Below are positions 26,201 through 63,346 of a DNA stretch of 64,000 nt, piece by piece; positions within the stretch are counted from its first letter, which is position 1, and each line of letters begins with the position of its first letter. The notes beneath the pieces are model-generated. The model saw nothing but the letters and a program-made list of their open reading frames with translations. It ran no database searches and was not told the DNA's origin. This DNA comes from Mesostigma viride. Its lineage: Eukaryota > Streptophyta > Mesostigmatophyceae > Mesostigmatales > Mesostigmataceae. A program made the translations under genes and the position numbers. The stretch lies in the NCBI GenBank assembly GCA_009746045.1, contig RPFO01001512.1:21001-85000 (forward strand), read 5' to 3'.

Positions 26201-28773
26201 GGAGGAAGCGTGCCGCCAGATCCGTGCGAGCCAAGAATTGATCGCTGCTGCCGCATTGACGCGAGATATAGGATCCGCTACAGTGTCATCATCCTCATGC
26301 CAGAAGGCCACGCCGGCCGGCACGGCCACGGTCCCATCAACTGCCGTGAGGTCTGTCGCCGGCAACGGCGCCCCGATACCCTCAGGTGCTTCTCTCTCAG
26401 ATGGCGCTGCCCGCGTCCCCGCCAACCCGTCAGACCGCTCGCAGCTCCTGCGCCGCAGCACCGAGGACATTCGGCGCGAGCTGGCGGACGAGCTTGCCAG
26501 TGAGAGGCGTGAGCACAACGCGACGCGGCAGCGGCTGGTGGAGGAGCAGGCCCGCTTCAACGCGGAAGTGGCCGCCATGCAGGCGCGACTGGCAGCCGCC
26601 ACCAACGCCCGGTCCCCTATCCCCACTCGCCCATCATCATCCTCCCCTGGGCCTGCAGTTTCACCGGGCAACACCAACAGCGGCTCGCCAGTGGACACGG
26701 GAAAGGCTGGCCATGGTGACGTCAGCCAGCTGCGTAGGCAGAGCTCGTCTGCCAGCCCTGACCGGCAGCTATCGGCGGAGGTGGCTCATCTGCGGGGGCA
26801 GGTAGCGGAGCTAGAGATGCGGCTGTCACGTGCGGAGGGTGACTCCCTGGCCCGCGAGGCGCTCGAGACGGAGGTGGCGCGCCTACGGGCGATCATCGCG
26901 GCACCATCGGGAGTGCCCGCGGAGCCACCAAGCGAGGGGGTGGTGGAGGGTAGCGGTGCTGCAGGGGATGTGGGCTCGCCGGGCAAGGCCACGCTCAGCG
27001 CGGGTGTGGCGGCCGCGGGCAGTAACGTCGCGGCGATGGAGGTGGAGGTGGCGGATTTGCAGGATGCGCTGGCGCGGAGGCAGGAGGAGGTGGACGAATA
27101 CGTGGAGATGTGCGACTCGTTGGTCAGGTGGGTTGTCCTGTACAAGTGGAGACGTGTGACTAGTTGGTCAGGTGTGTCTTGCACAAGCGGAGATGTGCGA
27201 CACGTTGGTCAGGTGGGCTGTCTTATACAAGTGGAGATGTGCGATGCGTTGGTCAGGTGGGTTGTCTTATACAAGTGGAGATGTGCGACGCGTTGGTCAG
27301 GTGGCTGGGCTGCTGATGTGGTATTGCGTGCGATGCATGTGCCTTAGACCGGAAGGGCGTGGCATCGTGCTCGTTCCCTCTCGGAAGGGACAGAAGGTTG
27401 TTTGTGATGATTGGCTCTGGGACATCAAGTGTTGAGGATGTCAACCATCTCTGACCCAGCAAACTGGATGTTCTGGTGTCTTTTCCTTGCTAAAGTCCGG
27501 CCACAAGATGCATGCCATCAGCACGCTCGTGGGGGTTGCACCTGTGTCACCATTATCAACAAGATCATGCAGCTCGCCCCTGGTAGCATCAAGAATAGCC
27601 CACCCTGGTAGTGGGTGGTGGCATCCACTGTGGACATTCCTCACAAACATCAGGCATGAGGTTATTAATTTGTTCTAGCTGTGTCAATGGCAATGTAGAT
27701 CAAAGCATGGCATGTTGATCTTGTTTTGCAGGGCCGATGTCTGTTCTTTGTATTTGATGAGATTACCGTGCTTAGAGCTTCTCCATAGTCTTAAAACTTG
27801 ACCGTCAGCCTTTCTAACCAACCCTGTTTATCTGACCCACCCGTGCTTAACCAACCCTTCTTATCTTGCAAATAATGTAACGTCACAACTCCCGAAACTT
27901 CTTCCCTGTCATGGCAGGGCTAACGCGGCGCTGAAGAAAAAGAACGAGGCGCTGCAGCAGCAGTTGCAGTGGGAATTCGTCAAGCTGGAGCTGAACAAGC
28001 AAGGGGCAGAGGGAGACAAGGGTACAGACCAGTTGCAGGGTGACACTGTCAGCCCAGGTGCTGCTGGCGCTGATGCAGCAGATGAGGCGGTGCATGCAGC
28101 TGATGCAGGAACTTCTTCTGATGACGGCTTGGCGGAGGGTGCTGCTTCTGTGCTACCTGATGCCGACGAGATCACAGGGCTGAGCTGCGCGCCAGGGTCG
28201 GGCCCCGAGCCAGTGCTCACGGAGCACCAGGAAGCCTTGCAGCCCCGCAAGAAGAGGGACATGCCGGGGGCCGCGGTCAGCACGGGCTGGAGCCCCGCGA
28301 GGAAGTCCACGCGGCTGGAGGATAGCAGGGCAAGCACACCTTCCCTACCGAAAGTCCTGGAGGCATGGTCTGGTGAGCCCGGTCCTGGCGTGGAATCGTC
28401 CTTCACCCAGGAGGGGGCGATGTCACGCCAGCATGGCTCTAGTGGCCTTCCCATAATGTCTGAGCTGGAGCCAGAAGGAGAGGAGACAGGGCAGGAGAAC
28501 TTGCATGACTCGCGTATGAGCGCGAATGGCTGTGATCTTGCACCTGTCCACGCGGAACCTTGTACCATAGTCGAGCCTGAGTTTGTCCCAATGGATGTTG
28601 CTAGAAAGGCAGTGTTTGGCAACCTGAGCAACTCAGCAAACCTGGCTGTGGGCAATGCGGTGCAGAAGACCGCCCCAGCAAAAGAGCAAAGTACTGCTGG
28701 GGCCATTCAAGGTGCACCCGCCTTGAACATCCAGGCAGGGTTGTGCAATGCAAAAGAGAATGTAGGCGTTTAA
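14270..28773 (+). CDS. Giant coiled-coil protein, function unknown
   Basis: Eight exons join in phase: 14270-14302, 14548-14691, 15365-15427, 16482-16640, 17471-17577, 18639-18924, 19332-27127 and 27918-28773 (TAA). They encode about 3147 residues. The start MDWDRNQAHLK forms a small first exon ending in a good GTGAGA donor. From residue 12 to about 2600 the protein is almost unbroken heptad-type helix, rich in Ala, Glu, Leu, Arg and Gln. An Ala/Ser/Pro spacer near residue 2690 (PTRPSSSSPGPAVSP) separates a last coil. The C-terminal exon is acidic and disordered, ending KENVGV. A block near residues 1270-1395 is repeated almost exactly 551 residues later. No motor, kinase, GRIP or membrane segment is seen. 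Such proteins act as scaffolds at basal bodies, Golgi or cytoskeleton. The head-to-head flagellar neighbour hints at a basal-body role, but this is inference only. The intron after exon 7 starts inside a 44-bp tandem repeat that multiplies the splice donor. Confidence 0.88.
22340..24370 (+). repeat. Internal coding duplication, 1653 bp apart
   Basis: About 22340-22720 and 23993-24370 are near-identical stretches of the large exon, offset by exactly 1653 bp (551 codons). They include GKEQLDAA, AETAKWAERESSLLA and AKANGERAEGEAAQVVTLR. A shorter, older relative starts at about 21061 (GKEQLDAAGRDLE). The duplication preserves frame and heptad phase. Confidence 0.85.
27102..27310 (+). repeat. 44-bp tandem repeat carrying the exon 7 splice donor
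   Basis: Five units contain the words GGAGATGTGCGAC and TTGGTCAGGTGGG. The first unit spans the end of exon 7 and its GT donor at 27128. The other donors are at 27172, 27213, 27257 and 27301, offsets of 44, 85, 129 and 173 bases. The offset of 129 is a multiple of three, so the fourth donor would keep frame and add 43 residues. The reading frame stays open through the array to 27345. Confidence 0.9.
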
Positions 28774-29179
28774 GCACTGGTGTTCATTACTTGAGGAGAC
28801 CCCTTTTGTGATTAGACGTGTTTGGGTATCTTGACAGCTATGCACATTGTTGCAAGATCAAGTTAAATGATAGACGGGTCATACGTAAGTGATAAACGCG
28901 GTCCCGTTGGGGAGCCACGAAGCATGATAACTCTCAGATTGATTATAAGAATACTAATCTAACCAGTTCCAATAGGCCTGTCTAACCGGTTTTCATTGCC
29001 TAGTCTCACGGACAGTAGCCCAATCTCACCGATGACGCAACGGAGTCCTTTATCGCCAACTTCACCACAAGGAGCGCCTGCTGGCTTTTGCCACCTGGCA
29101 CACCCAACAACGGAATGCTGCATTGTTTGACCCGCCAAGACCAGGCGAGCAAGTCGCGCCGCTTGCTTGGAGGGTGCCA
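28774..29179. other. Intergenic, 3' flank of coiled-coil gene
   Basis: No gene is visible. A relic of the shared LINE 3' hairpin (GTCCCGTTGGGGAGCCACGA) lies at about 28900-28920 in minus orientation, without a TTAA tail. Confidence 0.4.
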
Positions 29180-29269
29180 TTTGAGCGTTGAAAAGTCCTA
29201 TCAGTTATCTCACGTACGCCGCCCACACCCCGCCAGCCTCTCCCCAACCACCTGCCGATACCGCAGTCC

Positions 29270-29480
29270 CCGACGCCCCCCCTTGCTGGGTCAACGCCGG
29301 CACCACTCGCTGCGCATCGCTATCTACAATGTCCGCACCCTGCCCGGGGGGCATGCCCCCCGCGGGCCAACGAGGTTGCATCCACTACTGCCGCCTAAAT
29401 GGCGTTGATGTGCTCGGGGTTCAATGAGCACCGGCGCTCCTTTGAGGGCCCCGGCTCAAGGGTTCAGCGTGTCACCCTCG
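29270..29480 (+). pseudogene. LINE ORF2 endonuclease N-terminal fragment
   Basis: One frame encodes SLRIAIYNVRTLPGG and the next, after a one-base shift, encodes CRLNGVDVLGVQEHRRSFEG. These are the first strand and the catalytic-Glu region of the apurinic-like endonuclease of non-LTR ORF2 proteins. The rest of the domain is missing, so this is a dead fragment. It shows that the ORF2 partner carried an AP-type endonuclease, which would nick target DNA. Confidence 0.7.
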
Positions 29481-30054
29481 TGCACACTACAATGGCAACT
29501 GCTGTGCGGCCCGCCGCCTCGACAGAATCTGGACATGTCAAGCCTGAGTTGATTCTTTTCAAGGCGCCCCTTTTCCTCAGCCGATCCTCCTTTTATATCA
29601 AGGAGACAACCAGCGCAGGCCAGAAATCGGGAGAATCCGGACCATGGTAGCTCGAGCCTGCCGTTATGTTGTCCGCATTTTCGAGTCGTTTAGGATGATG
29701 AAAATGAATGGAGATGGAAATGTGTAGCCTTGTGCATTGAAATTATGGCTGCATGGCTTACGTGTAGAGCGACTAGATGACCTAGACGGCGGGGCCGGAA
29801 ACAGCTTGCTTGATCGGGGCGTGCCGGTGTTTCGAGCCTAACTGGCCGGGAGTGTCTAGTGGTGAGCCGACCATTGCTGCGATCGCTCTCCCACCATTTA
29901 CGAGGAAATACCCGCAAATGGAAAACCACTGAAAAGGTCTACTAGCTAGTCAGTCATTAGGTTAGCCATGCCATGATTCCAAACGTCCAAGAACTGGCTG
30001 CGAGGCGTGGGCCCTGCAGACCATGAGCAAGCAGCTTGACCGGGCAGCGTCATG

Positions 30055-30345
30055 CACTCGATTCAATTATAACTTGATTAAACAAACAGTCGTGCTCCCG
30101 TTGTGGAAGTTGCGGAGCACCGGAGTGCTTTTCTTTATCCCTGCATGCGCACAACAGGAAGAAAGGGCAGAGACAGACCCCCGTTCTCCTTCATGCCAGA
30201 GGCCATGCCAAAGCAGCAATCGGACACGATAGATGATCTGGCAAGTTCTGTGGGTGCAGTAAGACCCATGTGAGCATATCATAATTAACAAGGAGCGTGG
30301 GCAAGTAATCTGGTCATAGCCAGGACGTACCATGGCTGTACAAGG
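30055..30345 (-). mobile_element. LINE family A 3' UTR copy
   Basis: On the minus strand it contains the family A 3' UTR, ending in the hairpin (GTGCTCCG...ACGGGAGCACGA, with changes) and a short TTTAATCAAG-type tail near 30075. It is the leftmost of three family A copies lying head to tail. Confidence 0.6.
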
Positions 30346-30348
30346 GCT

Positions 30349-31865: not shown

Positions 31866-32110
31866 GCAATTAATTAATTAATTAATTCAACTCGTGCTCC
31901 CGGCCGTTGGGGAGTCACGGAGCACCGAAGTGCTGCCCTGTATGTGCCGGCACTGTCATGCAATGTGATCACTAGGAAGAAACGGCCTGGCAGAGACCCC
32001 CTTTCTCCTTCATGCAAGACGGGTGCATGCACGGCCAATGCAGGCCAATGGCCAGGTCACGTGCCGGCTCCGATCCACCACATGTAAGCACTGCTCGGAT
32101 GTCATCCTTG
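31866..32110 (-). mobile_element. LINE family A 3' UTR copy
   Basis: A TTAA tail (31866-31888) adjoins the shared hairpin and about 200 bases of family A 3' UTR on the minus strand. The 5' end is unclear. Confidence 0.55.
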
Positions 32111-37524: not shown

Positions 37525-37900
37525 CATTAATTAATTAAACTCTTGCTCCCGTTGGGGAGTCACGGGAGCATTAACCCCGATGGAATATGGATGGATGGAT
37601 GGATGGATGGACGGATGGGTATACACGCAATCCTACCGGTCTAATAAGCTATCTATGTACATGCTAATAATCTACATGCACTATCTACATGCTATCTTCA
37701 AAACAATCCTATTCTATATCTATATGGCCATGTATGCCTACGTGATGGGCCCACAGCAGACCTTGCAATAGCTGTAGCAGTTATGAGTCATGCTTAATTG
37801 CCCATGCAGAGCTAGAGTTACTCTCTGCTGAGATGCCATGCACCAGCTATAGCTAGCCTAGCCATACATCATATATTAATTGAGAATGATAAGCTACGGA
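37525..37900 (-). mobile_element. Composite SINE-like unit plus family B fragment
   Basis: 37525-37770 on the minus strand is the same SINE-like unit as 6751-6945, ending in the shared hairpin and a TTAA tail. It also has a (GGAT)n run at 37583-37613. About 37790-37870 resembles family B 3' UTR in the opposite orientation. The pair is therefore an inverted version of 6297-6945. Confidence 0.45.
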
Positions 37901-40704: not shown

Positions 40705-40719
40705 AGTCGACCGCATTAA

Positions 40720-41296: not shown

Positions 41297-41308
41297 AGTC
41301 GACCGCAT

Positions 41309-43023: not shown

Positions 43024-46000
43024 TCACTTTGCCTTCACGTTGGTCTTGGGGAACACGACGAGCAGGATGCCATCCCTGCAACAGGCACGCATCCAACGAA
43101 CAACGTAGTTCAGAAAGAAGGTAGTTCAGCTCCATGTTGGGAACGCCTTCACCAGCCCGTGTTGAAACGCCGCTGCATACCACCCCACCCACACGCGCAA
43201 AGGGACAGAAAGATCAGCACCATATATACGGCTTCGCAACGCAACCAGGTCCAAGCGTGGGCATGCATATCACACAGGGTGCGGTACAGATGTGAGGAAA
43301 GCTGCAAACGAATGTCAGGAAAGCTGCAAACGAATGTCAGGAAAGCTGCAAACGAATGTCAGGAAAGCTGCCAGCTGATCCAGAAATGCATGGGTATGTA
43401 TATCAGTACAACAGGCCACCTGTCCTACCTCCCCCCCCCCCCCTTCACCCCTTTCTGCCACATGGGGCCACAAGGAAGCCCCCAAATGCCCACGCCCACA
43501 CACACAAGCGCGCTTGCATGCTTGCACCCAACTCTGCCTGCATGGAGCCTCTGACGGCCAGGGCGGCCAGGTGCCAGATGGCAAGGCACGTGAACCCAGG
43601 GCCACTGTACAGCATGTACATCCACAGACACAATGTCGTCAAAATGATGATTACAGCAAGAGAGGAGGTCTGAGTGAAGAACAACAATCAAAAGCGATGC
43701 AGCATCTCCTCGGGTAATAAAAAAAAAAATGTTGTAACTTGCCAAACAACTCCAAGAATGGAGCAAAAAGAGAGACAAACCTGCTGCAAATGTCGAGACA
43801 TCCTGGCATGCTGGCTGCCCATAGTCAGCGCACACCATGCCGTAACACATGCCCAGCCAATGCCAAAAGTCGCCATCAAGGCACCCACTTCCATGATTTG
43901 TCCACACAAGGTATGGTATCCCCGTTGCAAGAATTCCACCAAACGACGCCATGTACGTTCGCTAGGCCTTGTACCAAAGCACGCAACAAGCAGAGTGCTT
44001 CTGCTGTCTTGGTTTCACATCAGTCTGCTAAACCCTAAACCATAAAACAGCAGGCTGATGTGAAACCAAGACAGCAGACACATGAACAATAAATATTACA
44101 AATACACACAAGTTATTACAACAAGGGATATGAAAACAAGATATTTAACCAACCACGTATTTAACCACACAAAAAGCGCATCATACTAACACACGACCAC
44201 GCCACGCCACGTACACTAGCTCCGCGCTGACGGCCTCCTTCTCCACCGTCTTAGGCACCTTCCACGTGACCAGGAAGGGACCCTGCGGCAGCTCGCATGC
44301 CTGGTAGTGGTAGGTGGACCAAGGGGAGGCGTCGGCGCCCGTGCTAAAGATGGCATCGCGGCCCCTGCCCGCGACGCGGTCGCCAGAAATGCTCAACCTG
44401 CCCATGTGCCGCACGCCACGGTGGCAGCAGGGAAGCGGGCATTGGCGAGAGAGCAGACATTGGCAGCAGGGGAACCGCGACGGTAAGAAACGAGACGCTG
44501 ATATTTGTAGGGTTGCCTTGAAGGGCCTGTCCTGAAGGCGCCACATTTGAAGGAATCGCCGTGCCAAGCGGTGAAGGGGTGAAGTGAGACTTGCACATAT
44601 ACAGGGTGTCCTGATGTAAATGCAGTTCTCGCCACCATGGCTTGAGAACAAACCGCAACCCCTCACATCCACCCCAGAGGGAATGAAACACCCTATCGGA
44701 GACGAAACGGATGGGAGGTGAGGCACCCTATGGGCGCTGAAGCATTGCATGGACGCATGGATTCATTAACGGGGAGACAAGACACAGCGCCCTTACCGGC
44801 GCCCCAAGCGCCACACGGATACGTCCAATCCACCAAGCGATGGGTCCAGCACAAATGGACCAATCCAGCGCATGGACCGTGCACACATGCATGACCACAG
44901 GGATGTCATCACCGAGTGGCCACACACCGACAACCATGGCGACAATCATGGCGACGACCACCACGGCGACAATCATGGTGACAACAACCATGGCAACAAC
45001 AAGCACGCCCATGGAGACACGCATGCTGATGTATGGGACGCTCACCCGAATGTTGGGAAATGACGATCGACCACAACAACAAACGGATCACCCACAAACA
45101 GACAAATACCAGCGACCACCCGCGCACCCACAGCCATGGCTTGGTCCCTGCGCGCCACCTTGGCTGCATGGCTGCTGCTGGAAACACGCCACAACAGCTG
45201 CCCTACCCAGCCCGGCCGACTGGTCATTATATGATACTAATGTCATTATATGATACTAATGTCATCCACGGCACGAAATAACGCCGCATTTTCCAAAGTC
45301 TATTTCCTTTTAGAGCATCGCTTATAATAGTAGATGCAGCGCTTGCATCGCGAAGGTGAAGTCCTGGCGCGGCCAAGCCACTCGCACGTCATCCACCAGC
45401 TCTACTACACAAGCAGGGGTCGCAGTGCAAAGCCATCTATAGGCCAAACCACTCGCACGTCATCCACCAGCTCTACTACACAAGCAGGGGTCGCAGTGCA
45501 AAGCCATCTATAGGCCAAACCACTCGCACGTCATCCACCAGCTCTACTACACAAGCAGGGGTCGCGGTGCAAAGCCATCTATAGGCCAAACCACTCGCAC
45601 GTCATCCACCAGCTCTACTACACAAGCAGGGGTCGCAGTGCAAAGCCATCTATAGGCCAAACCACTCGCACGTCATCCACCAGCTCTACTACACAAGCAG
45701 GGGTCGCAGTGCAAAGCCATCTATAGGCCAAACCACTCGCACGTCATCCACCAGCTCTACTACACAAGCAGGGGTCGCGGTGCAAAGCCATCTATAGGCC
45801 AAACCACTCGCACGTCATCCACCAGCTCTACTACACAAGCAGGGGTCGCAGTGCAAAGCCATCTATAGGCCAAACCACTCGCACGTCATCCACCAGCTCT
45901 ACTACACAAGCAGGGGTCGCGGTGCAAAGCCATCTATAGGCCAAACCACTCGCACGTCATCCACCAGCTCTACTACACAAGCAGGGGTCGCGGTGCAAAG

Positions 46001-47229
46001 CCATCTATAGGCCAAACCACTCGCACGTCATCCACCAGCTCTACTACACAAGCAGGGGTCGCGGTGCAAAGCCATCTATAGGCCAAACCACTCGCACGTC
46101 ATCCACCAGCTCTACTACACAAGCAGGGGTCGCGGTGCAAAGCCATCTATAGGCCAAACCACTCGCACGTCATCCACCAGCTCTACTACACAAGCAGGGG
46201 TCGCAGTGCAAAGCCATCTATAGGCCAAGCCACTCGCACGTCATCCACCAGCTCTACTACACAAGCACGGGTCGCGGTGCAAAGCTATATTGCAGACAGC
46301 TCAAGTCTTTGTTTGAGGAGTCAGTTCCCCCGGCCCCCGGCAGTCTCTGGTCTAGCGCTCACATGTCATCCACCAGCTCCACGCGAAGGCTGCGAGTGGT
46401 CACCCCAGGGAGCTCCACGCACAGGCGCAGGTCCGCCGCCGTCTCGATCACGTCCAGCCGCGGCCGCCACGGGGTGGACAGGTCACGGGGGAAGCCCTCG
46501 TGGATGATGCGCGGTTCAGGGGCGGCCTCCCCTGCAGGGACCTGGAGATCCCTGGGCATGTTCGTGGCAGCCGATGTTTGTGGCAGAGTTGTGGCGGTCG
46601 ATTGCAGCCTTGGAGCTGGCGCCACGGCAACGCTTGCGGATGCATCGGGCCGAGAAAACGTGGGCGCTGGTTCCTCTTCCGCATCTGCCTTTTGCGCGGG
46701 CCGATTGCTTGGCGAGGGCTTGGTTCCGACCGTTTTATCGGAGTGCGTTAAGGAGGACTCGTGGGGCGCATTACATGAAGTGGATGTGGGGGGCGAGGAC
46801 AGCGCCGGGCGGGATTTGGCATGAACGTCCGATTTGCCATAATGAGACTCGGGCCTGGCGAAATTAAGTCGGTTGATCTTGGGCTTCCGGAATACCGATG
46901 TCGCTGCAAGCGTCGGAGCGCGATCTTGCGAGCCCCGGCGTACGCACACGATGGCGCGACACGAGGCTCGGGCAGCGCCATCATCGTAATTACCCTGCAC
47001 GGTTCAAGAATTCATCCATGCACGCATCCAAGCCACACAAATAAGCGCATGATTAATTGCACGATTCGCAATGTCACACCGGCAAGCAATAGCCCGTAAA
47101 CAAGCCCCGACCACGCACCTCTGGTAGGGTATGGATGTAGCTGGCAGTGATATGCCGGGCTATGACATTTGTTCGCCGCAGACAGGATCGCGGCAAGAAG
47201 CTATCATCGTCGAAATTTCCGCTCGCCAT
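43024..47229 (-). CDS. Small heat-shock protein, HSP20/alpha-crystallin domain
   Basis: Four minus-strand exons join in phase: 47229-47119, 46994-46363, 44397-44215 and 43075-43024 (TGA). They encode 325 residues. The start MASGNFDDDSFLPR is the first ATG of an open exon ending in a GTGCGT donor. Residues 1 to about 205 are a long, low-complexity extension. The alpha-crystallin domain follows: WRPRLDVIETAADLRLCVEL, PGVTTRSLRVELVDDM, LSISGDRVAG, then GPFLVTWKVPKTVEKEAVSA and ELVDGILLVVFPK. The consensus LPxxV/GxL features are present. The protein should form oligomers that hold unfolding proteins. The usual C-terminal I-x-I/V tail motif is not visible (the end is TNVKAK), and the N-terminal arm is unusually long. 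The targeting of the arm is unclear. The second intron holds a 71-bp array related to the exon 2 donor. Confidence 0.88.
43296..43372. repeat. 22-bp tandem repeat, about 3.5 units
   Basis: GGAAAGCTGCAAACGAATGT repeats head to tail inside the last intron of the HSP20 gene. Confidence 0.9.
44000..44078. repeat. 30-bp inverted repeat with telomere-like loop
   Basis: Arms 44000-44029 and 44049-44078 are complementary at 29 of 30 positions. The 19-base loop contains CTAAACCCTAAACC-type sequence on the plus strand. It lies in the last intron of the HSP20 gene, so the transcript would form a long hairpin. Confidence 0.85.
45371..46287. repeat. 71-bp minisatellite, 13 units, related to exon donor
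   Basis: Thirteen units with an exact 71-bp period vary mainly at one A/G position. Each contains CTCGCACGTCATCCACCAGC, which resembles the HSP20 exon 2 end and donor (CTCACATGTCATCCACCAGC at 46359-46378 on the plus strand). On the coding strand every unit therefore carries GATGAC followed by GTGCGAG, a donor-like site. Confidence 0.95.
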
Positions 47230-50461: not shown

Positions 50462-53400
50462 TGGAGGACCTGGACGGGCTGTGGCCGTGGCTCAGGCCTC
50501 AGATCGAGGCGCGCGTCCCCCTGCGCGGCGTGATCCTGAGCAACAAGTACCACCGCAGCGCATTGGTGGACCGCTTGCCGCTGGAGTTTGTCACGTCGGC
50601 CGACCGGCGCGTCACGTGGCTGCTGGAGCGCGCGCACGACCCTGTCCACTGGTTCCGGATACCCTACGCCAAGATCTACCTGATCACATGCCAGGTGGGC
50701 GCGCGTATGCATGCATGCACGAACCGACCGCACTGATTCCACATCCCCTGCTCGAAAGTTGCATTCTTTGCTCTGTCACCTGCCAACCGGGCAAACACAG
50801 CCATGGCCCATGGCGCTGGTTATGCATGCCTTGCGCTAGATGGTTATTTACCCCATCACCTGCCAACTGGGCGCGCGAGGTGGACTGAGGGAGGCAGCCT
50901 AAGGGCCTCCCAAGCGTATATCAATGAACACGGTTTTATCCTTATACAACTGGTTTATAGCTGGTTTATTCCCTTCCTTCCATTCCTGTAACAAGGGCAC
51001 AGGCGGGCAGTGTCGAATCATGAGTCGTTCCAGACCGGTCCTGGGTGGGGCGCGTCTGGTTTGGGTGGGTGAATGGGGGGGGTTGGTGCAGTGTGCCTGC
51101 GGGGTTTCCAGGGTGGGCTGGTGTGACGGTAGCCTTCCTGCCAAGCATGAGCAGCATGGGTGCCGCTTCAGGCTGGGCTATATCCACTGCCAGGGGTGTT
51201 GGGTGACTAGCCAGCATCGCCATGGTCGCGTTCTCATTCCTGTGGTGATACGCTGCACGGCTGCCACCTTCACTGCATGATTTCTGCCATCCATTAACCC
51301 TCGCCTCACCTTGCCATTGAGTATATTTAGTATACTGCAGTGCTGTAGTGTTTCCTTTGTTTCTTTTTTCTCTCGCTTGTTTGCTTTTTATCTTGTTTCC
51401 TTCTTTCTTACTGTTATTCCTGTATTCCTTCTTCCCCTCCTTTGCCTTCCCCTCCGTCTCCCCCTCCTTTGCCTTCCCCTCCTTCTACCCCTCCTTTGCC
51501 TTCCCCTCCTTCCTTCTGGCCCTTCTTCCACCCTGCCCCCCTGGATGCATGTGCCAGCCTATTTTTTCTCATTTCCGGTCTCTTGCCTCTTGTTTTCTAT
51601 GTTTCCTCCATCTTTTTAAATCTCACGCTGCCCCCCCTTCAATGCCGCGCCCGCCAGGACGTGGAGGACCCCAAGATGCACTACCGGCAGACCATGCGCC
51701 CCAAGCTGCAGGCAATGCTGGAGCGCGAACCCGCCGAGTGGCTGCTCGTCTACGTGGTCACCCGCGCGCTGCTGGTCGCGCAGCCGCGGTCCTCCCGCCG
51801 GCTGTACGAGAAGATCAAGAACGACTTCAACGTGAAGAAGCAGAAGAAGTGAGTGGTGAAGGGGTTGGGGAAAAATATATCCAGAAGCTGAAGAAGTAGG
51901 CGGTGCTGATGATATTAGCCGCGCTTCTATGATGGCAGCAGGTGTAACGACTTCAACGTGATAAAGGTGAAGACATAAGCCATGTTCCCTTGATGGTAGC
52001 AATGGTAACAACTTAAGGTGAACAAGCACAATAAGTGAGTGGAGAAGAGGAAGAAGTAAATTAAGAAGCAGAAGAAGTAAGCAGCCGTAGCGACTTCATC
52101 GTAAAGAAGCGGAAGCAGTTAACCATGCACGTTAAACACGTTGCATCTACATGCGTATGTCTTCCCCGATGCTGGTAGTGTCAAGAGGCGCAAGAAATGA
52201 GCCTTGCACGGGGCACGATCATCAGGACACCATCATGAGGACACCACCATCAGGACACCACCATCAGGACACCACCATCAGGACACCACCATCAGGACAC
52301 CACCATCAGGACACCACCATCAGGACAGCACCATCAGGACACCACCATCAGGACACCACCATCAGGACACGATCTCCTTTCAAATTATTAATGTCTGCTC
52401 CGATGGTTAATGGCAATAATAGAACTGATGATGAGCACCATGATCGTTATCATGGCCCGTTTTATATGTATGTTATCATTTATTATATATAATATATGTT
52501 ATCATGGCCCGTTTTTTGCTTGTATCAAACCCTTCGATTTGGAGGGAAGGGCTGCCCCTGCACTCCCACTGCATCGTGCACTCGCCCTCCCTGGTCAACA
52601 CCCGCTATGCCCTGCTCTGACGGAGCCTGTCCTGCCCAGTTGTATATGGCCGTGCTCCTTGATCAATGCCCCCTTCTCTTCACCTACAACGCCCACCTCA
52701 CCATCTCTACTCATCGTGCACTCTAGTGCCACCCGTGCACGCTTCACCTGCTCTATTTCTGTTCCCGTCACTCTGCCGATGTGCCTGTGCTAGCTGGTCC
52801 TACGCCGCCGCCTATGACACCAATCTCACCAACTCCAGTCTCCACCAAGCTCACCAACTCCATCAATACTGCCTACCCCTGCTTCCCCTATTGCCACCCC
52901 CGCCCCCGCGGTGCCTTCCCCTGCTCTTTGGCTCTCCTCTTCCCCCCGTGCCCTCTCCCCCCCCCAGCCGGTGCTTCATGCTGGACGCAGGGATTGGCGT
53001 GACACAGCAAGCAGAAGTGTGGGAGGAGCTCGAGGAGCGCCTGGCCGAGGGCGTGCAGCTGGCATTCAACCAGCGGCGCATGCTGTATGAGGAGGAGGTG
53101 CGGCGGCTGTCCTCCAGCCGGCTCATGCCGGGGTGGGACTTCTGCCGCTTCTTCCTTGTCAAGGTGGGGCGCCATTGATGATCGGCTGTCATGATCTCTG
53201 CCTGCTCAGGCAGTTCCCCGGCTTGTCGTCCGCGCCTTGTTGTGTTGTCCCTACTTCTTGATGTTTCTCACCCAACAGTCAGTCATGGGGCGGCATCTTT
53301 CTGTGGGATGTATGCGTACTGCCACCTGCGTGCTGCCTGCAACTGCCCCGCTCATGCGGCTTCCCTGGGTAATGCATCGGAGGCCGATCACATTCTATTC

Positions 53401-55271
53401 TATCTCTGCGAGCAAGTTTGCAACCAGTTGCCAGTGTAAACTAAACCTTTGTTTCTGTGGCCTGCTGGGGATCCGTCTAGAGACTGCTTGTGTGTACCCG
53501 CCAGGCATTTGACATTTCTAGGGAGAAAAAGACTCCTCAAAATTGTGCAATCTAGTACACTTTTGCTTTGCAGTGGTCTGCCCTGCGTTTCCCCACCGTT
53601 GCCCCTCTCGCATTCTGCCCTGTCACCCCCGGGCACAACCTCATATGTCTGTTTGTTGCTGCTCCCCGCTGCTTTTTATGTATGCTGCTCCTCTGTCATC
53701 CCTAGCTCTCCCCCATCTCTCCCCCATCTCGCCCCCATCTCGCCCCCATCTCTCCCCCACCTCTCCCTTCCCATCCCGCCGTGCAGGAGAGCTTCGCGTT
53801 CCTGTTCGAGGCCGCCACGCTGTACGACGACGCGCTGCGCGAGTACGACGAGCTCGAGATGGTCTTCACCGAGAGCTGTGCGTACAGGTTTTACTGTATT
53901 ATCATACAGGGGGGTGGAATATATGCGGACTTTGCCAGGAGCAGTGCGTAGGGTGTGGGTTGGCCGCCGTGACGCGCATAGCCAGCGGGTGTGATGGCAG
54001 AGCCCACTGGGTTGATGCGGTCAATATTGGCTTTGTCTTTAGGCTCCTTTCTTGTGCCATCTGGACCCCGTCAGCCCGTGTTGCCACGACTCTATCCAGG
54101 GACAAACTGGCCTATACACATAGTTGTACGAATGGCCGCTGCCCCGTATGGGCGCCCACGTTGCTTGCTATCCGCCGCAGCTCACAGCGCATGTGATGCT
54201 GCTATCCGTACCCGTGTTGTACGCCTGCCACCGTACACGCGTCATCAGCGTCGGCGGGTCTATTTGCGGCCAGCGGGTTTGGCTCCCTGGAGGACGGCGA
54301 CACCAAGCTGGCGCTGCTGGAGTACTTCAAGAAACCCATCCGTCAGGCGATCGCGCGCAAGTCAGTGGTGGAGGCCGACTGTCGCCAGTACTTCTTCGCG
54401 CGGCAAGCGGTGGTGCGTGCGTGCCTGCGTGCTGGGGCAAGCGTAGTGGCCAGCCACCACTGTTCACTAAAGTCCCTCCCTCCCTCTCTCCCTCCCTCCC
54501 TCCCTCCCTCCCTCCCTCCCTCCCTGGAAGTAAAATGCGCAGCTACTGCCTGCCCACCAGGTGAAGTTTCGGTCACTGTCCTGCCTTGTGAGCCCAGTGG
54601 GCCCTAGTTGGACTGTGTTTTGTGTCTCTCGTGTGCGGTAGACTCGATTAGTTTTCAGGGAGCCATGGTTCTTCCGATTCAGGCTGTAACACCGTGCCAA
54701 GTTTGTGTCGTCTGGACAAACGCAGCGTCACTCAAGAGCACACATACTTGTGTGTGGCATGTGCGCGTTTTTGTGTGCCTTCCCCTTCTTTCCGTCACCT
54801 CCCTGTTCGCTCCGCAAACCGTCCTTCGCCAGCAACTGTTGGCCAATCCTGCTGCACCTACTGGCACCCATGAAACCTGATTGCTTGGTATCCGTCTCTT
54901 CCTGGGTCTGCGTGCGCAGCTGCTGATGGCGCTGGACCAGCCGCTGGAGGTGGTGGAGCGAGGCATCACGCTCATCCGCACGCTGGGGCATGGCTTCCGC
55001 CTGCGCATGGTAGGGTACCCATGCCCTCCCCTGCTCGCATCGCCCGCTACAGCTTTTTGCTATGGAAAATGCAGAACCCCACAAGCTCACTGTCCTTGCC
55101 ATGGCTAGGAAGCCCTTTTCCTTGATGCTTTTATAATATAAGTAGGTGCCGTAATAGGCTTGTTATGGTAGGTGCAAGTTAATTACGTAACAAGTGGGCA
55201 ACTTGGTACAAGTTTGTCGCTTTCCAGGTAAGCGTCCCCTTGTACAGGTGTGACATGCACAGAAGGGTGCG

Positions 55272-55319
<48 letters not shown>

Positions 55320-58300
55320 GAGGTACGCGCCTTTGGCCATCGCGTAACCGCCGACTATATATATCAACTACACTTATTGCTGTGTACTGTGAATTGGCAA
55401 GGAAAAATGGCAAGCACTACCTCATGCATGTTGGCTAGCGGTGAGAAAATGGACAGCCGATGTTGTCCACGCTTGTATAAATGGCTTGGCTGATCTTGCA
55501 GCGTCGGCGTTCCTTGGAAAGGGATGCATCCTCCTTGACATCCGCTGTTGGTCTTTCATAATTGATCTTTGTTTTTTTCTCTGTTCAATGGCAACAGGCT
55601 GGCTCCATGGACGGCACGGTGGAGGGCTGGGTTCTCTCGGCCTGCCTCTCACTGGGGGCGCTCGCGGGGGAGCATCTGCAGGCGCTAGAAGCCAGCTCGC
55701 GCGGCCGCAAGGAGCAGGAGCGCGCGCACATGCACCGCCTGCTGGGAGACATCTACGCGTTTGCGCGCCAAAAGGTAGGCGGTTCCCCTTGATGGGGATG
55801 CTATTGGGGGGCCTGGGCGATTTTAGTCTCTTCCTGGCGCTGAAGGGTAGGTAGTCACCCTTTGGCGGGCCTGAGGTGGCTTGGGTATTGTCTACGTAAG
55901 AGCAGATACTTGGAAGAAGTAAAGTCATCGCCGTGCCTGAGATGGTGCGTGTGCCAAATGTTGCGGTGAATTTTGCGAAATTTGTGTGTCTTGGACAACC
56001 CCAGGCGTGTTGCATGGTGAGAAGTCACAAGGAGGGAGGAGGGAACTACCTACGTGGCTGGAAATAGAGCCTCGAGTTTATCAGAACGTGCGTTTTTACA
56101 ACCCTGGCCCAATGAGCTAACGCGCTGTGCTACAGAACGTCTCCACTGGTGTGCAACTCAGCCAAGGCCGCACCAGCTCTGCGCTTCCGACTCTCAAACC
56201 CACATCACGCCGTGATCTCGACTTGACTTCCACGCTGCCCAATCCCTAACGACCCCCTCGCCACCCCCTCCCCATGCCCGCACCCTATCTCACATCACAT
56301 CCTCATCAGGCTCTCATGTGCTCTCACTGCGTTCCACGCGTTGCCCTCACAACGCTCTCACCACCCACCCATGGCAGCTGCTGGTGCTGGGCGTGCTGTG
56401 TGGCTTCGTCGACGAGTCATGGGTGGCCGCGCTCAACATCACGCTGCTGCACGCGGGGTCCTCTGCGTAAGTGACCACACCCTACCAGCAGACAGCCAGG
56501 AGCGGCCAGGAGCAGTCCTTGTCGTGAACACTGCCGGGCGCAGGCGTGCAGATCTCTGGATGCCCACAGGCCCGGTGCTTGAATTTTTAATAACCATGAG
56601 CTGGTCGAGAGCTCGGATTTTCAAGTGCTTGGATCGGTCATGTGTTTCAAAACAAGGTTGCTTTTCCCCCGGCAATGCTGTGATTGCCGTTCAGATGGGC
56701 AACTTCAGCATCGCCTTCTGCCCAACTTAGCAGCCTCGCTTTGAGCTCCCTTGGCTGCATGTTTTTTCAGCTCCCGCACTGCCCAGCGCGGCTGGCTCTC
56801 CATGGCTGTTTGCTGGTGGCACTTAAGTCTGGCACGGGACGCGGTGATTGCTTTCCTTTTATTTCATTCGACTGCTGACAAGCCACACCACGCGACGCCC
56901 CGCTCCTTCCACGGGCTGTTTTCATGCCCTGTGTCACGTGGTAGGCTGCGCGTTCCTCGCATCCCACCCTCCCCTTCGCTTGACGTGTTCGCACTTGCCA
57001 TGGCTTTGCTGTTGTTGCTTCCCATCCCAGTGTCCACTGTCTTGTCATTGCCTTGCCATGGTCGTGTCATTGTCTTATCATTGCTTGCCATTGCCTTGCC
57101 ATGGTCGTGTCATTGTCTTATCATGGCTTGCCATTGTCTTGCCATGTCACCACGGTGCCCTCCTGACGGATGAACGGATGCAGGGAGTTCTTGAGAGGGG
57201 GTTACCTGGGCTCCCCGACGGCAGGGGTCAACGTGAAAGTAAGTTCCCTGGGCATCATCGAATCTCTGCACGGCCGCCCTTTCTCTTTGTGGGCTGTAGC
57301 TGCATCCTTTGCCACCAGGTATGAATAATTGCCAGGGATATATATATATATCATATATATATTGCGACGAGGGATGAACAATTGTTAGCCTTCCAGGCCT
57401 TATTGTTGTAGTTTTGACAGTGTTCTGCCTTCGTACCAAGATGTGATGCATGGGCTTGTGTGCTGGCTTCGCTGACAGTGACCTAGATGTCGCAACACAT
57501 CCAGATACTGCCTGCCTGCCGTACTAGGGGTTCACTGTAGTATTTCTTGGGGTTCACTTTACTATCGCGCAGCATGTGCATGCCAAAGAATGCGGCTGCT
57601 GCGGTGTGTAGGCTTGGATGGGTTCAACAGTGACAATCTTCAAAGAAGTGCCTCGTTGAAAGGCTTGGCCCATCGAAGGCAGATGGTTAAAGTCACACTT
57701 CACACAATAATACGCCTATCTCTAATAATAATACGCCTATCACTTCACACAATAATACGCCTATCGCACGCGGTCGTATTCACCCACAAAGAACACAATA
57801 ATACGCCTATCGCACGCGGTCGTATTCACCCACAAAGAACACAATACTACGCCTATCGCACGCGGTCGTATTCACCCACAAAGAACACAATAATACGCCT
57901 ATCGCACGCGGTCGTATTCACCCACAAAGAACACAATAATACGCCTATCGCACGCGGTCGTATTCACCCACAAAGAACACAATAATACGCCTATCGCACG
58001 CGGTCGTATTCACCCACAAAGAACACAATAATACGCCTATCGCACGCGGTCGTATTCACCCACAAAGAACACAATAATACGCCTATCGCACGCGGTCGTA
58101 TTCACCCACAAAGAACACAATAATACGCCTATCGCACGCGGTCGTATTCACCCACAAAGAACACAACAATACGCCTATCGCACGCGGTCGTATTCACCCA
58201 CAAAGAACACAATAATACGCCTATCGCACGCGGTCGTATTCACCCACAAAGAACACAACAATACGCCTATCGCACGCGGTCGTATTCACCCACAAAGAAC

Positions 58301-61300
58301 ACAATGATACGCCTATCGCACGCGGTCGTATTCACCCACAAAGAACATAATAATACGCCTATCGCACGCGATCGTATTCACCCACAAAGAACACAATAAT
58401 ACGCCTATCGCACGCGGTCGTATTCACCCACAAAGAACACAATAATACGCCTATCGCACGCGGTCGTATTCACCCACAAAGAACACAATAATACGCCTAT
58501 CGCACGCGGTCGTATTCACCCACAAAGAACACAATAATATGCCTATCGCACGCGGTCGTATTCACCCACAAAGAACACAACAATACGCCTATCGCACGCG
58601 GTCGTATTCACCCACAAAGAACACAATAATACGCCTATCGCACGCGGTCGTATTGACCCACAAAGAACACAACAATACGCCTATCGCACGCGGTCGTATT
58701 CACCCACAAAGAACACAATGATACGCCTATCGCACGCGGTCGCATTCACCCACAAAGAACATAATAATACGCCTATCGCACGCGATCGTATTCACCCACA
58801 AAGAACACAATAATACGCCTATCGCACGCGGTCGTATTCACCCACAAAGAACACAATAATACGCCTATCGCACGCGGTCGTATTCACCCACAAAGAACAC
58901 AATAATACGCCTATCGCACGCGGTCGTATTCACCCACAAAGAACACAATTATACGCCTATCGCACGCGGTCGTATTCACCCACAAAGAACACAATAATAC
59001 GCCTATCGCACGCGGTCGTATTCACCCACAAAGAACACAATAATACGCCTATCGCACGCGGTCGTATTCACCCACAAAGAACACAACAATACGCCTATCG
59101 CACGCGGTCGTATTCACCCACAAAGAACACAATAATACGCCTATCGCACGCGGTCGTATTCACCCACAAAGAACATAATAATACGCCTATCGCACGCGGT
59201 CGTATTCACCCACAAAGAACATAATAATACGCCTATCGCACGCGGTCGTATTCACCCACAAAGAACACAACAATACGCCTATCGCACGCGGTCGTATTCA
59301 CCCACAAAGAACACAACAATACGCCTATCGCACGCGATCGTATTCACCCACAAAGAACACAATAATACGCCTATCGCACGCGGTCGTATTCACCCACAAA
59401 GAACACAATAATACGCCTATCGCACGCGGTCGTATTCACCCACAAAGAACACAACAATACGCCTATCGCACGCGGTCGTATTCACCCACAAAGAACACAA
59501 CAATACGCCTATCGCACGCGGTCGTATTCACCCACAAAGAACACAATACTACGCCTATCGCACGCGGTCGTATTCACCCACAAAGAACACAATAATACGC
59601 CTATCGCACGCGGTCGTATTCACCCACAAAGAACACAACAATACGCCTATCGCACGCGGTCGTATTCACCCACAAAGAACACAATAATACGCCTATCGCA
59701 CGCGGTCGTATTCACCCACAAAGAACACAACAATACGCCTATCGCACGCGGTCGTATTCACCCACAAAGAACACAATAATACGCCTATCGCACGCGGTCG
59801 TATTCACCCACAAAGAACACAATAATACGCCTATCGCACGCGGTCGTATTCACCCACAAAGAACGGCTCCCTGGTCGTGATGGACGGAACTCCTGTTGGC
59901 AAGCGGTGGCACCCGCCTTGGCACCATGGTGTTTCCCATGTAATGTCTGACCATTTGCACCAGCAGGAAAAGCCAACCATTTGCCAAGCTGTACCTGGGG
60001 CGTCCTGGGAACGCGTCCTGTGGAACCCACAAGCATGCCCATTCGGCATCTGTCATCCGGTCCCAGATATATTTCAGCGTTTAGCCTATGCACCACTGGT
60101 CACCGAACCAACCCCTTCATTCTCATTCCCCCTCCTCTGTGGTGCCAACTCCCCCTCGCTGTGGTGCTGACTCCCGCAGTCTGCCTTTGCTCGCGGGAGG
60201 GGCACCCGTATCAACACAGAGAACGTGGTAATACCGGCCTCCGTCACTGCGGAGGGTGCCACGGATGCCACTGGTGGGCCGCTGCACACAAGCTCGATGC
60301 CTGCCACTACCGCAGGGGGGGTACCCACCGAGGGTGGCACCGCGCCACCATCATCATCATCACCATCATCCGACGCCCATCCCCCGCTGCCCACTGGCGA
60401 GATTGTCTTGCGCCAGATCAGCATGACCTCGGAGGCGCCGCAGCCACCGGCCGAGACGGGGGCAGAGGGCGATGAGAATGCCAGGTATTTTTAGATGCCG
60501 TTGGTTTGGGGATATCGGCACGGCTTCACTTCCCTGCCATCGTTACTGTCCGCGGGTGCTACCATAGACGCTGTGGGTGGACAGATAGACAATAGGGGAC
60601 ATAGCTAAGAGTAATGGTCATATATTGTATTTGTATGCCTTGCTACCTGCTGCCCCTGTCACCTGTTAATGCAAAGCCATTGAATTGCAAAACCCTGCCA
60701 GGTGGCTCGCAAGAAGGCACAACCATGGCTTTGGCTCGCTGTCTTGGTGGTGCTGGCGAGGTTACAACGTGGTCACCTATGCCTTAGCACGATAACATTC
60801 ATTGCACACATGCCCGCCCGCCCCTCCGCCCCCCCCCCCCTTCCCACCTCCACCACCCCTCTCCCTTGAATTATTTTTGTTTCCCCCCCCCCTACCCCCA
60901 GCGTGTCCGGCATGTCCACCAGCCTGCTGCACGCCGAGGAGCCGCTGTCCACTGTCACGGTCAACACGAGTGAGTACCACACGGAGGCACGGCTGGGCAT
61001 CGCAGGGAAGGACCTGCTGACCATGCCGCCCATGACGTCCGACGGCAGTAGCACGCTTGACGACGACTCGTCCTCGCAGGGCGGGCCCCACCTTCTGTCC
61101 CCACGGGCCCACTCGAGCGAGAGCAGCTACGGGAGCAGCCACATCGTCCCCCCGATCTTAGATGCCCCAATCCCAGGGAGCCCCCGCGCATCCCGGTCCA
61201 GCTGGGGCGCACGTTCGGGACTGGACAGCCTGGCCGGCAGCATCCCCGGAAGTCCCCGGTCGGCTCTAGGGGGTCGCCCCAGCGGCGCGTTTGACAGCGG

Positions 61301-62408
61301 GGGTGGGCTGAGCAGCCCCCGGGGCCCCCGGTGCGCACCCCTTGACATGCTGGTCCCGGGGAGTCCGAGGGGGTCCATGCGTGGGGGCGGGTTTGAGGGC
61401 AGCAACCCGCTCAGCCCGCGCGGCAGCCACGGCATGCGTGGGTTGGACTCAATGGGGAACGCGTTTGGGTGCGGTGACGCGGGCGGGGCGATTGCTGGCT
61501 TCTTGGCCACGTTGGAGCCCAGCACGGCGCTGCAGCACCTGCGGAGCACGTCCGAGGCGCGGCGCGCTCGGATCCTCGCGCGCGTCGCCGATGCATCGCT
61601 GCAGGCGGCGCTGGGGTCGCAGGAGCAGTTTGAGGTGGGGGTTGGGCAGGAGCAGGTTGAGGTGGAGGTTCGCACATAAGTGGTTTGAGGGGAGGGTTGT
61701 TGCAGGAGCGGTTTGAGGGGAGGGTTGGCGGAGGAGCGGTCTGATGTGAGGGTTGGCGCAGGGGCAGGTGGAGTTCAGTGTAGCCCTCCAGTCTACGTAA
61801 TTTGAATTGCAGGACATCTCTTGAAGTGTTCCAGGAGTCACCGCTTGCTCCCCGCCGCGCCTTTCTTGTTCAACTGCAGTGTCCTGGCACTGGCCCTGGG
61901 AATGTGCCTTAAATGTGTTATGTCCCTGCCCCCCCGGCTTGCCTGCATCCTAAATGTGTCATGCGCCTCACCCACCCACCCCAGGGGCCCTGCGTCTTAA
62001 ATATCCTATTCCCCCCCCGCGCCCCCCCGGCGTACCTGCGTCCTAGATGTATCATGCGCCCCCCTAGCCAACAAACCGGGCAGCTGCATTTGAAACGTGT
62101 CATGTCCCCCCCGACCTCCTCCCCCTGGCGTGCCTGCGTCTCAAATGGATCATGCCCCCCGCACGCACACACCAGGGACCTGCGTCTTAAACGTGTCATG
62201 TCCCTCTGCCGCCGCGCTCCCCCCCCCCAACGCCCCGTATGCCTGCGTCGTGAATGTGTCATGGCACCACCACCACCACCACCACCACCACCACCACCAC
62301 CACCACCACCACCACCACCACCACCACCACCACCACCACCACCACCACCACCACCACCACCACCACCACCACCACCACCACCACCACCACCACCACCACC
62401 ACCACCAT

Positions 62409-62445
<37 letters not shown>

Positions 62446-63346
62446 ACCACCACCACCACCACCTGTGTGCCTGTGTCCCAACTGTGCGGCAGGCGTCCTA
62501 CGAGGATGTGACCAGTAAGGCGGCGTACCACTTCCGTGCGTGCGGGTGGATGCGCAGCGCACGAGTGCTGCAGGGGGAGCTCGCCACGCTGCGCAGCCGA
62601 GAGCGCAACTACGCAGAGGTAAGTGGTCTCGGAGTCGGGCAGGCGGCTGCGAGCGCAACTAGGCGCAGATAAATGATGTATGGAGAGAGAGAGAGGCGGT
62701 TGTGAGCGCCACGAGGCAGAGGCAGAGTCATGTGGGGAGATGCTAAATGCGCAGAGGCAAGTGACTTAGGTAGAGGGCAAGTGGCAGAGGTAAAGTGGCA
62801 AAGTAACGGGGGGCTGCAAGTTACCTAGGCAGGGGCCAGTGGTGCGGCAGGGGCGCTGGCAGGGTGTTTATCTCTGGGCCTAGTGCGCGGGCTGGGCGGG
62901 TTGTGGAATGAATGGTGGGACGCTTCTCCCGCCTGCACCTAGCTGAGACCAGATAAGAAGGCAAGTCGGCTGACGTGCATCGTGTCACCCTAACACATAT
63001 TGGAGATCCTATGGATGGGTCATAGGAGCAAGGGTTAATTTGGTATGTTTTACTGCTAGTGCACATAGTAGTGAAGATGACGAGCGAGCAATCCCAATTT
63101 TCTGTTCTCTCTGCGCTTTGTGCACACCCACTCCCTCAACGTTGTCCCACCGTTTTGTCCCCACATGCGACAACGCCAAATCCCCAATTGCTGTTTCCCA
63201 TCACATGAATTACGCAATTCCTTTAATGCCTCTCTGTTTTGTCCCCACAGGCGGCGTCCCTCTTGCTGGAGCAGTGCCAGCAGTACGAGCGCGAGCGCTG
63301 GTACTTGCCGCTGTCGTACGCGCTCCCGCAGCTGCACGGCGCGCAG
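50462..63346 (+). CDS. TRS130: TRAPPII complex subunit TRAPPC10 / TRS130, partial
   Basis: Thirteen exons join in phase: 50462-50694, 51658-51848, 52968-53163, 53787-53881, 54274-54412, 54920-55009, 55598-55774, 56378-56466, 57184-57238, 60180-60484, 60902-61634, 62493-62618 and 63251-63346. They give about 842 residues. The 3' end is outside the window and the first exon is uncertain. Family matches in order are [76 protein letters not shown] and [20 protein letters not shown]. They follow the plant TRS130 (CLUB) and human TRAPPC10 order. The protein is a TRAPPII-specific subunit that helps activate Rab11/Ypt31-type GTPases at late Golgi and in cytokinesis. Exon 60902-61634 encodes a Ser/Pro/Gly-rich insert with repeated PGSPR motifs. 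Introns are long and hold many minisatellites. Several introns begin with copies of the exon end. Confidence 0.92.
50679..50881 (+). repeat. Degenerate copies of exon end and donor (intron after 50694)
   Basis: The exon end and donor ATCACATGCCAGGTGGGC (about 50683-50700) are echoed by GTCACCTGCCAACCGGGC (about 50777-50794) and ATCACCTGCCAACTGGGC (about 50857-50874). In both copies the GT is changed, so they are not donors. Flanking TATGCATGC words are also shared. Confidence 0.7.
51420..51530. repeat. Pyrimidine-rich repeat CCTCCTTTGCCTTCC
   Basis: About three units of roughly 30 bp built on CCTCCTTTGCCTTCCCCTCC lie in the intron before exon 51658. Confidence 0.8.
51822..52124 (+). repeat. 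Copies of exon end and donor (intron after 51848)
   Basis: The exon end AACGACTTCAACGTGAAGAA with the following GTGAGT is echoed at about 51945-51981 (AACGACTTCAACGTG), 52005-52043 (ending AAGTGAGTGG), 52060-52082 (AAGCAGAAGAAGTAAGC) and 52088-52124 (GCGACTTCATCGTAAAGAAG). A shorter copy lies near 51880-51903. Several keep a GTGAGT, GTAAGC or GTAGGC donor. Confidence 0.8.
52219..52372. repeat. 14-bp tandem repeat, about 11 units
   Basis: The unit ATCAGGACACCACC repeats head to tail with few variants, in the intron before exon 52968. Confidence 0.95.
54474..54527. repeat. (CCCT)n microsatellite
   Basis: A run of CCCT units lies in the TRAPPC10 intron after 54412. Confidence 0.95.
55272..55321. 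repeat. (ATC)n microsatellite
   Basis: About sixteen ATC units lie in the TRAPPC10 intron after 55009. Confidence 0.95.
57749..59864. repeat. 46-bp satellite-like array, 46 units
   Basis: Forty-six head-to-tail units, each exactly 46 bp (no indels), contain ACAATAATACGCCTATCGCA and CGCGGTCGTATTCACCCACA. Variation is limited to a few positions (AATAAT/CAACAAT/AATGAT, ACATAAT, CGGTC/CGATC). A shared variant pattern recurs 414 bp apart (58301 and 58715), a nine-unit duplication. The array fills most of the intron between exons 57184-57238 and 60180-60484. Partial units precede it from about 57698. Confidence 0.97.
61617..61776 (+). repeat. Copies of exon end and donor (intron after 61634)
   Basis: The exon end GCAGGAGCAGTTTGAG with GTGGGGGTTGG is followed by about four degenerate copies of roughly 27-30 bp (GCAGGAGCAGGTTGAGGTGG, GTTTGAGGGGAGGGTTG and others). 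The first copy keeps the GT and most others have GG. Confidence 0.8.
61900..62260. repeat. Degenerate C-rich minisatellite
   Basis: Six or seven imperfect units of roughly 50 bp are built around CTTAAATGTGTCATGTCCCC and C-runs. They lie in the intron between exons 60902-61634 and 62493-62618. Confidence 0.7.
62262..62462. repeat. (CAC)n with (CCG)n core
   Basis: About 48 CAC units, then about ten CCG units and further CAC units lie just upstream of the acceptor at 62492. The long proline, histidine or glycine frames across it are repeat artefacts. Confidence 0.95.
62597..62800 (+). repeat. Degenerate copies of exon end and donor (intron after 62618)
   Basis: The exon end GAGCGCAACTACGCAGAG with GTAAGTG is echoed by GAGCGCAACTAGGCGCAGAT (about 62650-62669), GAGCGCCACGAGGCAGAGGC (about 62704-62723), GCGCAGAGGCAAGTG (about 62749) and GGCAGAGGTAAAGTGG (about 62784). 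Only the last keeps a GT. Confidence 0.75.

Follow-up and report, generated by a model that had tools for sequence, protein, structure and literature searches.

Decayed tandem copies of exon ends and splice donors at the start of about a quarter of the introns in a genomic window of Mesostigma viride

Introduction

Why should introns of unrelated genes begin with what looks like a repeat of the exon end that precedes them, 5' splice site included? The question is raised by a stretch of 64,000 nucleotides from the streptophyte Mesostigma viride (GenBank assembly GCA_009746045.1, contig RPFO01001512.1, positions 21,001 to 85,000 of the forward strand), which was analysed as a whole and is referred to below as the window; all coordinates are positions within it. 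The original prediction was that in a coiled-coil gene, an HSP20 gene and TRAPPC10, exon ends and their donors had been copied into the starts of introns, perhaps by a process that repeatedly duplicates DNA around donor sites.

Related arrangements have been published. In human IFI6 a minisatellite at the end of an exon supplies splice donors from its repeat units, according to a 1995 report as cited in an available passage of PMC4526556. In the available passages of Zhao et al. (2013), tandem repeats are enriched near the intron-exon junctions of Chlamydomonas and Volvox, and a role in splicing is suggested (PMC3887541). Intron gain by tandem genomic duplication of AGGT-containing sequence is reviewed in PMC3443670, as far as its available passages go.

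Materials and Methods

Four genes were modelled in the window (coiled-coil, TRAPPC10, HSP20 and CFAP298) from reading frames, GT-AG borders and protein families, with acceptors chosen by frame and motif. The coiled-coil gene (plus strand, 8 exons) was drawn from frame and splice sites alone; its predicted product is a very long coiled-coil protein of 3147 residues, most of which is encoded by a single 7.8-kb exon (19332-27127). TRAPPC10 (plus strand) has 14 exons and continues past the window edge; Pfam places the TRAPPC10_1st domain at residues 24-329 (E 1e-52), and beyond residue 329 parts of the model are based on frame and splice sites alone. A PDB search with the TRAPPC10 product was empty at E 0.001, and relaxing the limit to E 10 brought in just two chance-level matches. 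HSP20 (minus strand, 4 exons) contains the Pfam HSP20 domain (E 5e-9). CFAP298 (minus strand) has 7 exons, the first 4 of which made up an early model, and the full model contains the Pfam CFAP298 domain at residues 188-280 of 287 (E 1.6e-39); its first 213 residues found no related locus in viral_contigs. The models held 26 introns at first, all GT-AG with open reading frames, and 29 after CFAP298 was completed.

The donor query consisted of the exon end plus donor (-30 to +10); in its own intron it was compared with the 490 bases that follow, so that the first 500 were covered. Controls were 1000 Markov shuffles, the starts of other introns and a mirrored query at the acceptor. For the count of retained GT dinucleotides, two copies that do not cover the donor were set aside, and the copy in CFAP298 intron 4, which has lost its GT, was not included.

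Results and Discussion

In six of the 26 introns modelled at first, the exon end plus donor recurs downstream (p 0.001 in each, 1000 Markov shuffles). These are intron 7 of the coiled-coil gene, introns 2, 3, 12 and 13 of TRAPPC10 and intron 2 of HSP20, so that the copying foreseen by the original prediction was found in all three genes. For each of the six arrays, none of 22 other introns compared matched the intron's own score. The mirrored test at the acceptors of the same 26 introns gave no value below 0.05, the lowest being 0.057. A seventh case came from CFAP298 intron 4, in a gene that had not been listed before, and here none of 26 other intron starts matched the intron's own score. 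It had also been proposed that the units differ between unrelated genes and do not represent one mobile element, and the failure of other introns to match (0/22, and 0/26 for CFAP298) agrees with this. Aligning each donor to its own intron and comparing the result with the acceptor side had been suggested as a check; over the 29 modelled introns, 7/29 donors and 0/29 acceptors were positive at p<=0.002 (Fisher one-sided p=0.005). The donor of TRAPPC10 intron 14, the acceptor of which lies beyond the window, was negative, giving 7/30 donors overall. The six first cases are presumably those that prompted the prediction, which gave no list, and CFAP298 is therefore the sole held-out estimate, with one of its six introns positive. 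With these seven cases, it is confirmed that about a quarter of the introns in the window begin with decayed tandem copies of the preceding exon end and its splice site.

The copy signal is confined to the donor junction and fades away from it. When a 40-base query was slid along the sequence and matches with a score of at least 34 were counted, 6/25 windows were positive at -30, 2/24 at -40 and 1/24 at -50, and no query that began at -60 or farther upstream was positive; those starting between 0 and +40 from the donor gave 2-4 of 25. A scan in 15-base steps with shuffles for each window likewise gave 6/25 at -30, 1/23 at -60 and none further upstream. On the acceptor side, windows with 15-30 exon bases gave 1/25 or 0 in both sliding scans; in the 15-base-step scan, 2/25 were positive at the acceptor itself and 1/25 when 15 exon bases were included, and an exon window at +75 stood out in isolation (1/21). 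Two further donors were not counted as cases: that of TRAPPC10 intron 5, which is weak (p 0.032 over 500 bases, 0.007 over 150), and that of TRAPPC10 intron 8, where there is an alignment only (p 0.382 over 500 bases, 0.098 over 150). The lowest acceptor-side values were 0.019 for TRAPPC10 intron 13 (150 bases) and 0.048 for CFAP298 intron 6.

One of the plus-strand arrays belongs to the coiled-coil gene, where the end of exon 7 (27102..27127, aligned from -26, with the donor at 27128) acts as copy 0 and the start of intron 7 (27128..27321) holds four further copies at 27146-27193, 27194-27222, 27225-27281 and 27282-27321 (score 66, p 0.001), making five with the exon's own, in steps of 44 bases (unit about 44 bp). 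The open reading frame of the 7.8-kb exon continues into this array, to 27344. In TRAPPC10, the end of exon 2 (50674..50694) is the source of one clear copy in intron 2 (50846..50877), 172 bases from the true donor, which is degenerate (26/32 identical) and has lost its GT. The end of exon 3 (51820..51848) is repeated in intron 3 (51883..52212) as degenerate, unevenly spaced copies at 51883-51905, 51946-51973, 52007-52050, 52063-52081 and 52091-52119, with a weak one at 52180-52212. Both of these exon ends lie inside the TRAPPC10_1st domain. Intron 12 of the same gene follows an exon end at 61616..61634 (copy 0, donor at 61635) and contains copies of a unit of about 27-28 bp over 61646..61769, at 61646-61670, 61683-61698, 61699-61740 and 61742-61769, the first copied donor lying 27 bases from the true one; intron 13 follows an exon end at 62593..62618 (copy 0, donor at 62619), and its copies (62643..62854) are again degenerate and unevenly spaced, at 62643-62685, 62704-62728, 62737-62763 and 62772-62798, with a weak one at 62825-62854.

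On the minus strand, the end of HSP20 exon 2 (46363..46382, copy 0, donor at 46362) lies inside the HSP20 domain and is followed in intron 2 by an array (45371..46285) of about 13 near-identical 71-bp units. Every unit contains 20 bp of exon end, and its donor position reads GC where GT once stood; the first copied donor stands 125 bases from the true one and the rest follow in 71-base steps. CFAP298 intron 4 has a single tandem copy (10920..10945, minus strand, 21/26 identical) of the exon 4 end (10964..10979, donor at 10963), which lies inside the CFAP298 domain; the offset is 34 bp and GT has become AT. With a query reaching to -40, the exon share of the copies is 16-29 bases in all seven cases, and the offsets from true to copied donor range from 27 to 172. 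Queries reaching to -120 extend some matches, to -65 in the coiled-coil gene, -74 in TRAPPC10 intron 13, -84 in TRAPPC10 intron 2 and -105 in HSP20, but on inspection the deeper extensions in the coiled-coil gene, TRAPPC10 intron 2 and HSP20 are gappy, and the gain in intron 2 is the least clear. Exon sequence and donor are fully present in each tandem unit of coiled-coil intron 7; elsewhere GT has been lost in some or all copies. Overall, the arrays resemble ordinary degenerate minisatellites, with the first unit lying across the exon-intron junction.

The direction of copying can be judged from the conservation of the exon ends. Masking the 8 residues at the exon end before TRAPPC10 intron 2 costs 20 bits of the TRAPPC10_1st match, and masking the 9 before intron 3 costs 18 bits, compared with 8 bits for a control mask of 8 residues. 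The HSP20 match falls from 40.3 to 29.4 bits when six exon-end residues are masked, a figure obtained without a control mask, and HSP20 aligns ungapped across the intron 2 junction with solved small heat-shock proteins in two alignments. For CFAP298, masking the last six residues of exon 4 lowers the match from 134.6 to 115, and a control mask of six residues in the same domain lowers it to 119.2; the control costs nearly as much, so it is the whole domain that is conserved and the junction is not special. As judged by these matches, the exon ends at TRAPPC10 introns 2 and 3, HSP20 intron 2 and CFAP298 intron 4 (four of the seven) are shown to be ancestral coding sequence. Those at TRAPPC10 introns 12 and 13 may be ancestral as well, and the indication is weak: a TR130 match of 17.4 bits, below the curated cutoff of 25, vanishes when either exon end is masked, with no neutral mask for comparison. 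This conservation, clear at four of the seven exon ends and weak at two others, implies that copying ran from exon to intron. Identity between copies is 82% in their intron parts and 88% in their exon parts, as expected if selection holds the exon alone.

Acceptors differ from donors in their surroundings. In the 29 introns, no AG was seen 5-40 bases upstream of the acceptor, where 25 were expected from base composition, which is what a first-AG rule predicts, although picking acceptors by frame and motif may inflate this exclusion. Over the same 5-40 bases, GA occurs at 0.76 of expectation, and at 40-80 bases AG occurs at 0.50 of expectation. The AG preceding the acceptor AG lies at a minimum of 38 and a median of 85 bases (29/29 introns), versus 29 in shuffles of 25-base blocks. 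No corresponding exclusion of GT was found after donors, where the next GT has a median distance of 4 bases. Donor-like sites at a threshold of 6 were sparser in the exon before the donor (2) than in the following intron (7), numbers too small to carry weight. Two minisatellites in TRAPPC10 approach acceptors and end short of the exon, one at 53706-53767, 19 bases from the intron 4 acceptor, and one at 60127-60175, 4 bases from that of intron 10; intron 10 also holds an array at 57747-59864 of about 46 copies of a 46-bp unit, with 97% matches.

Given the copies themselves, their position at the junction, the conservation of several source exon ends, the asymmetry between donors and acceptors and the exclusion of AG, we consider it reasonably likely that these arrays are ordinary tandem duplications, or minisatellites, that by chance extended across the border between an exon and its intron. 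Each such duplication would take in some 16-29 bases of the exon's end, the donor and part of the intron, and splicing would keep to the first, ancestral donor. If that donor stays in use, all copies are spliced out, and nothing hinders them from multiplying, diverging or losing their GT. A duplication across an acceptor would instead place an additional AG, with a second exon start, ahead of the true acceptor; as the first AG after the long AG-free zone is used, it would add bases to the mRNA and be removed by selection. The first-AG rule would in this way account for the contrast between donors and acceptors. We infer that the first donor is the one used in vivo and that the copies are neutral.

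Tolerance alone, however, has to contend with the donor rate of 6/25 testable introns (24%), which is about three times the typical density of intronic arrays outside the donor arrays (7-9%). The exon share found with the short query is narrow (16-29 bases) although offsets run from 27 to 172, where random breakpoints would probably spread it more widely. Both observations favour a second reading, namely that donor junctions are mutational hotspots at which transcription or the donor DNA itself (R-loops, G-rich donor strands or breaks, for example) starts duplications. The extra case in the previously unlisted CFAP298 points the same way. How far the rate counts depends on the background chosen. 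Repeat-covered intron windows outside the donor arrays make up 8.8% when averaged per intron (6/25 donors higher, P 0.019) and 7.0% when pooled without the intron that holds a 2-kb array (P 0.0066), whereas the full pooled background outside the donor arrays is 21.4%, over which 6/25 donors are in no excess (P 0.45). With the donor arrays included, the background rises to 11.8% per intron (P 0.065) or to 25.7% pooled by length (P 0.65). Moreover, selection preserves the exon half of the unit, so that arrays spanning a donor are easier to detect, and the sample is limited to 29 introns, with 1/6 in the held-out gene. The donor-directed process of the original prediction thus keeps an excess over a background of 7-9% (P 0.007-0.02), becomes unclear against 12% and loses its excess against 21-26%; it is not needed to explain the arrays, and we hold a hotspot at donors to be possible but improbable. 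A lineage-specific form, in which a process linked to transcription or to donors copies the last 16-29 exon bases and the donor into about a quarter of the introns and a strict first-AG rule leaves marks at donors only, seems to us just as doubtful.

Could the copies be functional, so that as tandem donors or as decoys they give rise to alternative isoforms or adjust splicing? Human IFI6 is described as using such repeats in the available passage of PMC4526556, and two of the arrays here offer some scope for it. In the coiled-coil array the frame stays open to +218 after the first donor, and the copy at +130 keeps the phase and scores 9.4 with the position weight matrix, the same full donor strength as the true site; in TRAPPC10 intron 12 the copy at +28 is in frame. 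Array introns are also richer in donor-like sites over their first 350 bases (5.0 per kb against 2.1, threshold 6), as copying would be expected to make them anyway. These two copies are, however, the only scored ones able to give in-frame products. In five of the six arrays examined an in-frame stop follows the first donor, at +2, +2, +40, +43 and +52, so most later donors would give truncated products, and the other four of six scored arrays have no GT-keeping copy before the stop. The form of TRAPPC10 that gains nine residues from the next intron 12 donor copy loses the weak TR130 match (17.4 bits, cutoff 25) that the first-donor form has. GT survives in 10/29 scored copies, 13 of the 29 belonging to the HSP20 array, where all read GC, and in 10/16 outside that array. 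It had been proposed that some copies keep GT and others have lost it, which the count bears out, and that decoys are later silenced, for which the count by itself is compatible with plain drift. Taken together, these data make a function in splicing very unlikely.

That the pattern is an artefact of chance, low complexity or wrongly placed exon ends is more improbable still. In favour of an artefact count the small sample, the presumable pre-selection of the first six cases, the abundance of tandem repeats in the window and a coiled-coil exon end that homology does not back up. On the other side, each of the six reaches p 0.001 with a score that the other introns compared do not match, domain matches support six of the seven exon ends (two of them weakly), and CFAP298 supplied a case that had not been listed. 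The AG-GT duplications invoked by the original prediction as a route to new introns find the least backing of all, since although the mechanism exists (available passages of PMC3443670) and some copies read AG|GT, in not one of the seven introns did the acceptor region rank first among the matches to that intron's donor region, with 7 to 28 of 28 other introns equalling or beating it, and we give almost no credence to the arrays as marks of introns born from an AGGT-containing exon stretch. An introner or other mobile element was rejected, as related sequence shared between introns was not found in the comparisons with other introns (0/22; 0/26 for CFAP298 intron 4).

The arrays differ from each of the published systems. 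Like them, the IFI6 repeat is tandem and lies at an exon end, with splice donors in its units, but the passage available concerns one human gene and reports the use of two of its downstream units, whereas here a single window holds seven introns in four genes, with mostly decayed copies known from their sequence. The Chlamydomonas and Volvox introns resemble ours in being rich in repeats that lie toward intron ends, but the profile in the available passages of PMC3887541 is U-shaped, rising toward both ends, whereas the exon-including copies found here pass the test at donors only. The text of that paper contains no word beginning with 'donor' or 'splice', and its available passages mention no copying of exon ends together with the donor. 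The original prediction knew of no description of such a genome-wide pattern in algae; tandem repeats near junctions are published there, with exon copying absent from the passages available. Among the titles and abstract openings listed from the open-licence literature there were no exon ends copied into algal introns, and none with recurrent exon-end copies across genes and a contrast between donors and acceptors. AGGT intron gain shares with our arrays a tandem duplication that copies splice-site sequence, but as its available passages (PMC3443670) describe it the outcome is a new intron with matching donor and acceptor, whereas our copies sit within an intron that already existed, the acceptor of which does not match. 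Exon-end arrays bear on intron lengthening and shifts of exon ends more than on intron origin. If the pattern is genome-wide, it would offer many natural tandem-donor experiments with known ancestral donors, in which one could ask which copy the spliceosome chooses. It would also mean that the spread of minisatellites is channelled by the rules of splicing, which are tolerant at donors and demand the first AG at acceptors.

Other Features of the Window

By eye, tracts of TTAATTAA were noted around 30374, 31888 and 37538, each followed by related sequence (CTCGTGCTCCCGTTGGGGAGTCACGG and variants); a 20-base piece of this repeated TTAATTAA/CTCGTGCTCCCGTTGGGGAGTCACGG element had no exact match in viral_contigs. 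On the minus strand, reverse-transcriptase open reading frames occupy 5626-6229 in two frames, one matching RVT_1 at 2e-8 and the other at 4e-6, which is below the curated cutoff. Two neighbouring open reading frames gave no match up to 0.01, and the frames at 5626-6229 are probably the remains of a decayed retrotransposon.
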